From Candidatus Tumulicola sp. (lineage in GTDB: Bacteria > Vulcanimicrobiota > Vulcanimicrobiia > Eremiobacterales > Eremiobacteraceae): a stretch of DNA of 64,000 nucleotides. Positions 43,455 to 60,631 of the stretch are shown here, piece by piece. The stretch lies in the NCBI GenBank assembly GCA_035601835.1, contig DATNNM010000011.1:124001-188000 (forward strand). The letters are read 5' to 3'. A model generated the notes under the pieces. That model saw only the letters and a list, made by a program, of their open reading frames with translations. It did not search any database and was not told the DNA's origin. The position numbers and the translations under genes are program-made. Position 1 is the stretch's first letter; each line of letters opens with the position of its first letter.

Positions 43455-43807
43455 GCCATCAAGCTCGATTCGGCATGGCGCAGCGCGCCGGCGTCAACGT
43501 CGTCGAGGTCGCGGGAGAGATCGACCTGGTCAACGTCGCCGAATTCCGGACGTATTTGGAGCGGGCCGCCGCCGCCGACCGCGGCGGCATCATCGTCGAT
43601 TTCGCCCAGGTCACGTACTTCGATAGCCGGACGGTGGCCGCTTTGGCGGACTTCGCCAAGCGCATGCTCACGAACCGCCAACGGCTCTCGCTGGTCGCAC
43701 CGGAAGGCAGCCGCGCCGAGAGGATCTTGAGCATCGCCGGGCTTGGTCTTGTTATTGAGATGCACGCGACGGTCGACGAGGCGCTGGAGGCCGCGCGCGA
43801 AGCCTGA
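43451..43807 (+). CDS. STAS-domain anti-sigma factor antagonist (RsbV/SpoIIAA-like)
   Basis: 118 aa STAS protein: NVVEVAGEIDLVNVAEFRTYL at the start, then VDFAQVTYFDSRTVAALADFA with a phosphorylatable Ser in YFDS (about residue 58). Dephosphorylated antagonist would bind the HATPase domain of the upstream protein or a separate anti-sigma factor and free a sigma factor. It overlaps the phosphatase gene (ATGA) and, tail to tail, overlaps prp by 56 bp. Confidence 0.92.
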   Translation: MSHQARFGMAQRAGVNVVEVAGEIDLVNVAEFRTYLERAAAADRGGIIVDFAQVTYFDSRTVAALADFAKRMLTNRQRLSLVAPEGSRAERILSIAGLGLVIEMHATVDEALEAAREA

Positions 43808-44144
43808 GCGAGGCGACTTTCAGGTGGCCTGGATGGGAACGGGCGATCGCGCGCAGTCCGTCGACCACGCTTTCGAGGATCGCTTGCGCGCGGGCGTCTC
43901 CGCGCAGCAGGTCCAATCGGTACTCCCCGTCCGCATCGTCCAGGACCCGTACGTCCGCTCCGGCGCGCTGCTTCAGCCCGTTGGCCGCCGACAGCACAAG
44001 GGCGCTGACCGCCGAGCACACGATATCTTTTCCAGAAAGCCCGAACCCGGCATGACCGGTGACGCGCAGGCCGACAACGCGACCCGCGTGCCGCTCGATC
44101 GATACTGCGAGGTTCGGCTTATGACGAGAGGGAGATTTTTTCAA
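43752..44144 (-). CDS. prp: Ribosomal-processing cysteine protease Prp (YsxB)
   Basis: 130 aa. The catalytic pair is present: His in VTGHAGFG and Cys in DIVCSAVSALVLSAANGL, in the order and spacing of Prp (PF04327). Prp trims the N-terminal extension of L27 in bacteria that carry one. TTG 44144 is the only start that keeps the first strand; it overlaps rplU by 26 bp. The C-terminal tail (RLRARPPAPRRPSRASQ) is long and basic and runs into the convergent STAS gene. rpmA (L27) is not found next to it. Confidence 0.86.
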   Translation of the reverse strand: MKKSPSRHKPNLAVSIERHAGRVVGLRVTGHAGFGLSGKDIVCSAVSALVLSAANGLKQRAGADVRVLDDADGEYRLDLLRGDARAQAILESVVDGLRAIARSHPGHLKVASLRLRARPPAPRRPSRASQ

Positions 44145-44436
44145 TCCGCAGCTCGGTGATCGGCTGCCGGTGCCCGTAGCGTTTGCGGATGCGCTTTTTG
44201 GGCTTATAGTGGAAGACCATGATCTTGCGGTCTTTCCCCTGCCGGACGACCCGAGCGGTCACGCTGGCTTTGCTCACCAGGGGCGTGCCGAGGCGCAGCG
44301 CTTTGCCGTCATGCGCGAGCAGCACCCGGTCAAAGACGACTTTTGCGTCCGCGTCGCCGGCGACCCGGTCGAGGCGAATGACCTCGCCCTCGCGCACCAA
44401 GATCTGTCGGCCGTTGGCTTCGATGACGGCGTACAT
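44119..44436 (-). CDS. rplU: 50S ribosomal protein L21
   Basis: 105 aa, normal length. Begins MYAVIEANGRQILVREGEVI, has VFDRVLLAHDGKALRLGTPL and the C-terminal KPKKRIRKRYGHRQPITELRI. L21 binds 23S rRNA near L20. Starts at ATG 44436 downstream of the TTGACG-TACGAT promoter. Usually the operon is rplU-prp-rpmA-obgE; here only rplU-prp remains before a convergent gene. Confidence 0.96.
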   Translation of the reverse strand: MYAVIEANGRQILVREGEVIRLDRVAGDADAKVVFDRVLLAHDGKALRLGTPLVSKASVTARVVRQGKDRKIMVFHYKPKKRIRKRYGHRQPITELRIEKISLSS

Positions 44437-44482
44437 GCTGTGAGTGACTACCTTCCAATTGAGACGGAAGCGAGAAGCGAGA

Positions 44483-44512
44483 ATCGTACCACGCGGCCTC
44501 TGCGGACGTCAA
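44483..44512 (-). promoter_or_regulatory. Candidate promoter for rplU
   Basis: Minus strand: TTGACG (44512-44507), 18-bp spacer, TACGAT (44488-44483). Predicted start near 44476 gives a 40-nt leader to ATG 44436. Confidence 0.6.
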
Positions 44513-44548
44513 ACTTCTCTGTCCCGCAATTGAAGTCCCGCAAAAGTA

Positions 44549-44577
44549 TTTACATTTGATGTTAAATGCCCTAATAT
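44549..44577 (+). promoter_or_regulatory. Strong candidate sigma-70 promoter for speH-speE-gcvT
   Basis: TTTACA (44549-44554), 17-bp spacer, TAATAT (44572-44577), each 5 of 6 to consensus. The AT-rich stretch around it stands out in this GC-rich region. Predicted start near 44584, giving a leader of about 80 nt before speH. Confidence 0.75.
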
Positions 44578-44583
44578 TCAAAC

Positions 44584-44662
44584 TTGGTACGTGGATTAGC
44601 CACGTGGCATCCGTCAATGGAGGTGGGATCTCCTCACTCGCAAGCTCGTGGGGGGCGGTTTA
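44584..44662 (+). promoter_or_regulatory. Structured speH leader, candidate translational switch
   Basis: Three elements: ACGTGG-ATTAG-CCACGT (44589-44605); GGAG (44619-44622) pairing with CTCC (44630-44633); and CTCCTCAC (44630-44637) fully complementary, with two G-U pairs, to GTGGGGGG (44648-44655), which contains the only Shine-Dalgarno-like sequence before TTG 44663. The second and third pairings exclude each other, so the leader can hide or expose the ribosome site. GCCACGTGGC (44599-44608) is also a 10-bp palindrome. It does not match a riboswitch class I know. Confidence 0.45.
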
Positions 44663-45100
44663 TTGAAGGCACTTGGGACGCACATCATCGTCGAACTGTC
44701 GGATTGTAATCCAGCGATCCTGAGCGACGTCGACCAAGTCCAAAAGATACTCGTTCAAGCGGCAAGAGAGGCAAAAGCCGAAGTTCTGCAGACCACGTTT
44801 CACCGCTTCAACCCGCAAGGGGTGAGCGGTGTCGTCGTTATTGCGGAATCGCACCTTTCCATCCACACGTGGCCCGAATATGGCTACGCCGCCATGGACA
44901 TCTACACGTGCGGAGAGACCACCGATCCTTGGCGGGCCTGCCGCTACGCGGCGACCGAGTTCCAAGCCAAGCAGATGCTCACCACGGAAGTGCGCCGGGG
45001 GATGACCGACGAAGCCGGTGTGTACGGTCACAGCGTCGGCCGTAAGACGACCGGAGTGGAGCCAGTTGCCAAAAACCGAAAACTTTCAGTGGTACGTTGA
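44663..45100 (+). CDS. speH: S-adenosylmethionine decarboxylase proenzyme
   Basis: 145 aa. Makes decarboxylated SAM, the aminopropyl donor. Starting at TTG 44663 (LKALGTHIIVEL), residue numbers coincide with the Thermotoga enzyme: Ser55, Ser63 (pyruvoyl residue after self-cleavage between Glu62 and Ser63 in AESHLS), His68 and Cys83 (YTCG). This agreement decides the start against GTG 44648. The C-terminal tail past residue 120 is longer than usual and overlaps speE by 35 bp. Confidence 0.95.
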   Translation: MKALGTHIIVELSDCNPAILSDVDQVQKILVQAAREAKAEVLQTTFHRFNPQGVSGVVVIAESHLSIHTWPEYGYAAMDIYTCGETTDPWRACRYAATEFQAKQMLTTEVRRGMTDEAGVYGHSVGRKTTGVEPVAKNRKLSVVR

Positions 45101-45950
45101 GCAAGTCGCGCCCGGAGAGATACACGCTCACGCCCTAACCGAAACCCTCGTCTCCGGCAAGTCGATCTATCAGACCTACGCGGTCGTACAAAGCTCCCTC
45201 TTCGGAAAAATGCTCGTGCTGGACGGCGACACCCAAAGCGCCGCCCTGGACGAGTTCATCTATCACGAGGCGCTCGTGCACCCGGCGTGCGCGCACGCGG
45301 GCGCGCCCAAGCGCGCTCTGATACTCGGCGGCGGCGAGGGTGCGAGTCTGCGCGAGCTGTTGCGCGTGCCTTCGATGGCTGAAGTCACGATGGTCGACAT
45401 CGACGGCGAAGTGGTCGAAGCATGTCGCCGGCACTTGCCGGAATGGAGCGCCGGTGCGTTTGAAGATCCTCGCGCCGAGTTGATTATCGGCGACGCCAGA
45501 GCCTACGTCGAAGGATCGAGCGGGAAATTCGACGTCATCATCGGAGACTTGACCGAGCCGCTGCAGGACTCACCGTCCTATGGTCTGCACACGCCGGCGT
45601 TCTACGAGCAGCTCCGCAAGCGCATCGCGCCGGGTGGAGCGTACGCGTTGCAAACCTCGATGGCCGGCCCGCACAATTTCTCACTGCATGCGCGCATGAT
45701 CGCGACGCTGCGCGGTGTGTTCGGCTCGGTCTTGCCCTACTCAGTCTACATGCCCGCATTCGATACCGAGTGGGGGTTGGCGCTGTGCAGCGAAGCAAGC
45801 CGCCCACAAGCGGAGGCGGCCGGCGCAGCGGATCGGCACGCGAAAGCGTGCGGCGGACTGCGCTTCTACGACGCCGAGTCGCACCGCGGCATGTTCAACC
45901 TGCCGCGTTACTTGCGCGACGCATACGCGACTGCTCGTCCGCTGACATGA
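45066..45950 (+). CDS. speE: Polyamine aminopropyltransferase (spermidine synthase)
   Basis: 294 aa. Transfers the aminopropyl group from decarboxylated SAM to putrescine or a related amine. Motifs are QTYAVVQSSLFGKMLVLDGD at about 37-56, LILGGGEGASLREL, TMVDIDGEVVEACRRH and IIGDLTEP, where the family often has DSTDP; GDLTEPLQD is seen in thermospermine- and agmatine-type members, so the acceptor is open. TTG 45066 follows a GGAG. Coupled to speH and, through ATGA, to gcvT. Confidence 0.92.
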   Translation: MPKTENFQWYVEQVAPGEIHAHALTETLVSGKSIYQTYAVVQSSLFGKMLVLDGDTQSAALDEFIYHEALVHPACAHAGAPKRALILGGGEGASLRELLRVPSMAEVTMVDIDGEVVEACRRHLPEWSAGAFEDPRAELIIGDARAYVEGSSGKFDVIIGDLTEPLQDSPSYGLHTPAFYEQLRKRIAPGGAYALQTSMAGPHNFSLHARMIATLRGVFGSVLPYSVYMPAFDTEWGLALCSEASRPQAEAAGAADRHAKACGGLRFYDAESHRGMFNLPRYLRDAYATARPLT

Positions 45951-60537: not shown

Positions 60538-60631
60538 TGGCGGGAGAAGATAGGAATCGAACCTACCAGTCCCCTTACGAAGACCAACTGGTTTTGAAGA
60601 CCAGCAGGGGCACCAGCCCCATACTTCTCCC
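60538..60631 (-). tRNA. selC: tRNA-Sec (anticodon UCA)
   Basis: 94 nt including an encoded CCA (60538-60540). Minus strand begins GGGAGAAG, which pairs with CTTCTCCC at the 3' side: an 8-bp acceptor stem, as selenocysteine tRNAs have, not the usual 7. The D arm is GGGGC-TGGT-GCCCC, the anticodon arm GCTGGT-CTTCAAA-ACCAGT with anticodon TCA, a long variable arm (TGGTC paired to GACTG), and a T arm TAGG-TTCGATT-CCTA. The pattern CTTCAAA..CCAGTTGG matches E. coli selC closely. The integrase gene ends 21 bp from its 5' end. Confidence 0.95.

Follow-up and report, generated by a model that had tools for sequence, protein, structure and literature searches.

A conserved leader element with a distant, start-less Shine–Dalgarno sequence precedes speH in Candidatus Eremiobacterota

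S-adenosylmethionine (SAM) decarboxylase, the product of speH, catalyzes the step by which SAM is committed to spermidine synthesis. Polyamine-responsive leader peptides, in which a ribosome is engaged upstream of a polyamine gene, are represented by speFL of Escherichia coli and by the upstream open reading frame (uORF) of eukaryotic AdoMetDC. Control by a ligand-binding RNA is represented by the spermidine riboswitch, a variant of SAM-I with a four-stem architecture that works by transcription termination and has been described from 13 examples, in Gram-positives only (PMC10853860). This SAM-I variant is the sole accepted bacterial spermidine riboswitch found in a literature search, which returned no paper connecting Eremiobacterota with riboswitches. 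At the level of translation, the mRNAs of the E. coli polyamine modulon, such as those for OppA, RMF, CpxR, and RpoE, have obscure or distant Shine–Dalgarno (SD) sequences; the genes concerned are diverse, share no common motif, and are stimulated by polyamines (PMC4191411). Where 5′ UTRs are structured, ribosome standby sites offer an upstream region that the ribosome may engage before reaching the start (PMC3936740).

The speH leader of Candidatus Eremiobacterota resembles each of these systems in part. Like the spermidine riboswitch (PMC10853860), which heads polyamine-biosynthesis genes including that for SAM decarboxylase, it precedes a gene of spermidine synthesis, where feedback would be expected, but it belongs to another phylum, has neither a SAM-I match nor a terminator, and carries a core anchored to the start codon. 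With the E. coli modulon it has in common a distant SD, local structure, a link to polyamine physiology, and a putative control at the level of translation (PMC4191411). Unlike that modulon, the Eremiobacterota leaders possess one invariant motif, precede one polyamine-synthesis gene, and have an extra proximal SD; they also lack the reading frame of polyamine-responsive leader peptides, to which a uORF in Methylomirabilota, described below, is similar. To our knowledge, described standby sites are structural features, and none consists of a perfect SD that is conserved yet has no start codon behind it.

The leader was recognized in a stretch of 64,000 nucleotides, referred to here as the window, which belongs to the same phylum as the 125 speH loci with upstream DNA that were gathered for comparison via speH itself. 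The features of the locus are as follows:

44549 to 44577, + strand: sigma-70-type promoter, TTTACA (44549–44554), 17 nt spacer, TAATAT (44572–44577)
44585 to 44609, + strand: 5′ hairpin TACGTGG/CCACGTG predicted by folding, found in the window's family with variable sequence and not universal in the phylum
44619 to 44629, + strand: invariant core GGAGGTGGGAT, containing GGAGGTG, all 7 nt of which are complementary to the tail of 16S rRNA
44630 to 44637, + strand: pyrimidine tract CTCCTCAC, with 44619–44622 (helix H1) and 44648–44655 (helix H2) as alternative potential pairing partners
44648 to 44655, + strand: GTGGGGGG, which contains the proximal SD of speH and is the potential 8-bp pairing partner of the tract
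44663 to 45100, + strand: speH, S-adenosylmethionine decarboxylase, TTG start (PF02675, E 1.8e-44)
45018 to 45950, + strand: speE-like spermidine synthase open frame (PF01564 and PF17284), downstream of speH in the same direction

The TTG at 44663 is confirmed as the speH start by the aligned N-termini of relatives, and the true start of the spermidine synthase probably lies somewhere within its frame. Transcription would begin near 44584, leaving a leader of about 78 nt, close to the 80 or so that the original prediction placed behind a strong promoter. No terminator-like site was found at 43800–45500. The neighboring rplU (L21; 44119–44436, − strand) diverges from speH and has a promoter-like site at 44512–44483. 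Elsewhere in the window, a selenocysteine tRNA (RF01852, 77.1 bits) is encoded at 60542–60631 on the − strand, which makes the production of selenoproteins by this organism probable.

The most conserved part of the leader is a 15-nt core, GGAGGUGGGAUCUCC (44619–44633), which precedes speH in 122 of the 125 loci, spanning about 15 family groups of Eremiobacterota, with the proviso that these and the following counts refer to sequences that are not all independent. Wherever the DNA upstream of speH is intact in close relatives, GGAGGT[G/C]GGAT..TCC or a near variant stands before the gene, and nearly all other classes of the phylum have slightly different variants, GGAGGTGAGATTCTCACC, GGAGGTGAAATCTCC, and GGAGGTGGGTTCTCC among others. 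Across 49 diverse leaders of the sister family, 11 nucleotides are invariant, and the invariance extends to the GGGAU that follows GGAGGUG. The core is likewise present in metagenome-assembled genomes labelled Armatimonadetes, Melainabacteria, or Burkholderiales, which match genomes placed in Eremiobacterota. The three exceptions are the speH loci L159, L165, and L169, and in three members of the window's family (L015, L019, and L020) GGAGGUC replaces GGAGGUG. L165 lacks the core although other members of its genus carry it.

The core is also exclusive to speH. When 147 Eremiobacterota genomes were searched with the pattern GGAGGTGGGATN{0,2}TCC, it occurred in approximately 100 places, versus 4 for a reversed control. 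Nine places not beside an annotated speH were inspected; two proved to be speH genes truncated by a contig end and the remaining seven sit inside unrelated reading frames, all others preceding speH. The window's own genome holds one copy, and genuine additional copies were found neither there nor among the 147 genomes. An RNA signal that is absent from Rfam is kept before speH throughout the phylum.

The position of the core is informative as to the level at which it acts. Its distance to the start codon is tight, with a median of 45 nt in the window's family, 42 nt in the sister family, and 43.5 nt in other classes, whereas its median distance from the −35 element (TTTACA) amounts to 73, 193, and 92 nt, respectively, a spread of about threefold. 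The promoter element itself is widely shared: when the 260 nt preceding the core are examined, TTTACA is present in 109 of 122 relatives as against 5 of 375 control windows. Since the core keeps its distance to the start codon rather than to the promoter, the simplest reading is that it acts in translation. The same measurements bear on the idea that GGAG-N-CTCC is an inverted-repeat DNA operator for a transcription factor: the core does form an imperfect dyad, and GGTGAGATTCTCACC in L155 is a perfect palindrome, but the spacing of the half-sites shifts by several bases, and it is the distance to the promoter that varies, not that to the start codon; this explanation is very improbable.

Action in translation accords with the sequence of the core itself. 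The 16S genes of relatives carry the canonical anti-SD tail GGATCACCTCCTT; in the incomplete assembly of the window's own genome the 16S tail was not found. Duplexes computed between core and tail average −13.8 to −14.5 kcal/mol, whereas those of the proximal SD average −8.1 to −10.2 kcal/mol, and the GGAGGUG of the core outpairs the proximal SD of speH in 120 of 122 leaders. An equally strong 16S-complementary site appears in 0.8% of random windows from the same loci; the window has 82 further open frames, some of which are not genes, and none of them has such a site at that distance. ATG, GTG, or TTG was not found 4–13 nt past the GGAGG in any of the 122 Eremiobacterota leaders. Given this strong complementarity and the lack of a start at SD spacing, the core amounts to a strong but start-less SD; one lies about 43 nt upstream of the speH start in the 122 leaders, besides the normal proximal SD.

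A strong SD raises the question of a leader peptide that is translated from it and coupled to speH. Such an arrangement is seen in some Methylomirabilota leaders, which have an upstream SD, an AUG, about 11 codons, and a UGA overlapping the speH start. In Eremiobacterota, however, the three usual start codons are missing from all 122 leaders at the required spacing, and where a near-cognate AUU or AUC follows the core, it falls into the three frames of speH at random (32/24/31) and leads to no conserved stop, so that a leader peptide there is a very remote prospect. In Methylomirabilota, a GGAGGTG-type site lies at a near-fixed distance before speH in 26 of 30 leaders, and supports upstream ribosome engagement as a common theme, although the likeness between the two phyla may be convergent. 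The AUG uORF, located about 45 nt upstream of speH, belongs to a subset (L242, L244, L245, L252–L254, L258, L260, L261, and L263), and its short product (e.g., MNGLEKGGPLD) is encoded behind the upstream SD, with the UGA overlapping the speH start in most; it is likely a leader-peptide or coupling arrangement. A different short element, GGAGC-hairpin-GCUCC UUCGAUUCUAAACUGAAGGGGG, is found in Nitrospirota speH leaders (L112–L117, L123, L132, and L134), whose CUCCUUC could pair with GGAG or with the SD; its conservation is weaker, and it is lost in some.

The original prediction had centered on two mutually exclusive pairings of the pyrimidine tract, one of which would mask the ribosome-binding site. 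Both can form in the window, where the isolated helices have energies of −6.0 kcal/mol for the H1 hairpin and −10.2 kcal/mol for the SD-masking H2, and the SD is paired with a probability of 0.80 and is mostly paired across the leaders of the window's family. Masking to this extent is unremarkable, being within the range of 0.2–0.8 for ten other genes of the window, and its conservation is not supported. Folding of the window leader alone is no more stable than expected by chance (z = −1.43; 19 of 200 shuffles equally stable), and no excess stability appears when 27 nt of coding sequence are included (z = +0.41). Tracts and SDs were also exchanged between leaders, a test run, like those for covariation, on redundant and related sequences: within the window's family, own pairs are no better than swapped ones, since 1725 of 2000 shuffles match or exceed their stability, and outside it they are weaker than swapped ones in 2000 of 2000 shuffles for the sister family and 1995 of 2000 for other classes. 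Selection for mutually exclusive pairings is therefore unsupported by the swap test. The core hairpin GGAG:CUCC shows no covariation either, shuffling its 3′ arm does not make it weaker (mean z −0.31), and its register and loop differ between families, the sequence being kept more strictly than the structure. A masking switch can thus possibly form in the species of the window, yet it is not the conserved feature. Four loci of one family (L151, L152, L170, and L171) have the GGAG of the speH SD within a strong hairpin of its own, GCAAATCACTCC...GGAGATTTGC, a clear SD-masking stem distinct from the core.

A strictly conserved sequence at a set distance from the start codon is also what a trans-acting protein or small RNA would leave behind if it bound the core and blocked or aided ribosomes. 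Against such a factor, there is a single site per genome, and no candidate was found; it is considered improbable. For CsrA, which binds GGA in a hairpin loop, the corresponding loop reads GAA in L143 and GAG in L155, and this candidate was rejected.

Structure under selection is evident in the sister family (f2) and in f3, in which a domain of about 120 nt with helices P0 to P3 lies upstream of the core. Compensatory double changes on tree branches number 6 in P0, 12 in P1, 4 in P2, 4 in the outer part of P3, and 2 in its inner part, compared with 0, 2, 0, 1, and 0 other double changes, respectively. On a thinned alignment, 94.8% of the pairs are canonical, and the covariation score is 0.279, compared with 0.171 for shuffled and at most 0.085 for slid alignments. 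In a G-test with a tree-based null over all column pairs of the sister family, clade structure dominates, so that every pair stayed at E 0.4 or above; the test was superseded by the counting of compensatory changes on tree branches and of structure pairs. This evidence for a conserved fold applies to P0–P3 of the sister family, the core hairpin showing no covariation. A covariance model of the domain yields 86 strong matches, all of them speH leaders and none in the window's family; thus, the two leaders share only the promoter type and the core, and the window's own leader has the short 5′ hairpin of variable sequence in place of P0–P3. With the core conserved before speH alone across the phylum and the sister leader covarying strongly, the prediction of a structured regulatory leader of speH holds.

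This domain bears on the riboswitch interpretation, the idea behind the original prediction. The core, together with P0–P3 in the sister family, would be an aptamer for spermidine, SAM, decarboxylated SAM, or putrescine, and on binding of the ligand the CUCC tract would change partners, from GGAG to the SD or back. In favor, the multi-helix covarying domain adjoins the core with long conserved unpaired stretches, the element is tied exclusively to a polyamine gene, the window can form either pairing and H2 is the stronger of the two, and natural spermidine riboswitches are known in other bacteria (PMC10853860). However, the tract and SD do not co-evolve and, outside the window's family, are less complementary than swapped pairs. 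P0–P3 is confined to the sister family and f3, so that in the window's family and in other classes an aptamer would need to fit into about 15 nt. Rfam families are unmatched as well: at gathering and permissive thresholds, the leaders of the window and its relatives gave chance matches only, with no hit to SAM-I, other SAM, SAH, or preQ1 models, in agreement with the earlier impression that no such pattern is present. A riboswitch is regarded as rather unlikely.

The explanation favored here, tentatively and at somewhat less than an even chance, is that the leader acts in cis to control translation by means of a strong SD lying far upstream, most likely in response to the cell's polyamine or SAM state. 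The E. coli polyamine modulon provides a precedent for an influence of polyamines on distant SDs (PMC4191411). Its working part would be the core GGAGGUGRGAUYYUCC, a very strong SD about 43 nt before the start that has no start codon of its own, and the pyrimidine tract that follows would be able to cover it. Building on its conservation, its exclusivity to speH, its anchoring to the start codon, its excess of 16S complementarity, and the covarying domain of the sister family, we infer that 30S subunits dock at the core and from there reach the proximal SD, which is weaker, and the start codon, a TTG in this class; alternatively, they may be held unproductively at the core. Whichever the direction of the effect, opening and closing of the core would set the translation of speH, as would folding of the adjacent P0–P3 in the sister family, and the cellular polyamine (or SAM) state would be the signal. 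Polyamine or SAM feedback on spermidine synthesis through the leader is plausible in this analysis. It should be noted that several observations sit uneasily with the distant-SD explanation: pairing with 16S rRNA alone leaves the invariant GGGAU unexplained, the core is absent at three loci and altered to GGAGGUC in three others, its hairpin lacks covariation, and the organism's own 16S tail was not recovered. A bolder proposal, which is judged unlikely, is that ribosome engagement itself senses the need for spermidine, the start-less SD capturing 30S subunits or handing them over depending on polyamines, and that this is common to Eremiobacterota and Methylomirabilota, perhaps by descent.

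For RNA-based control of bacterial polyamine synthesis, one riboswitch class is accepted, and it is limited to some Gram-positives. The speH leader provides an independent, phylum-wide, and gene-exclusive motif ahead of the committed step of spermidine synthesis, accompanied in part of the phylum by a covarying domain new to Rfam. What is conserved most in it is a sequence for ribosome binding that lies upstream and lacks a start codon. It therefore offers a clear case for asking whether distant SDs serve as decoys or as standby sites, and a leader of about 80 nt makes the translational metering of spermidine in bacteria directly testable. In Eremiobacterota, this leader probably helps to set the amount of SAM decarboxylase.
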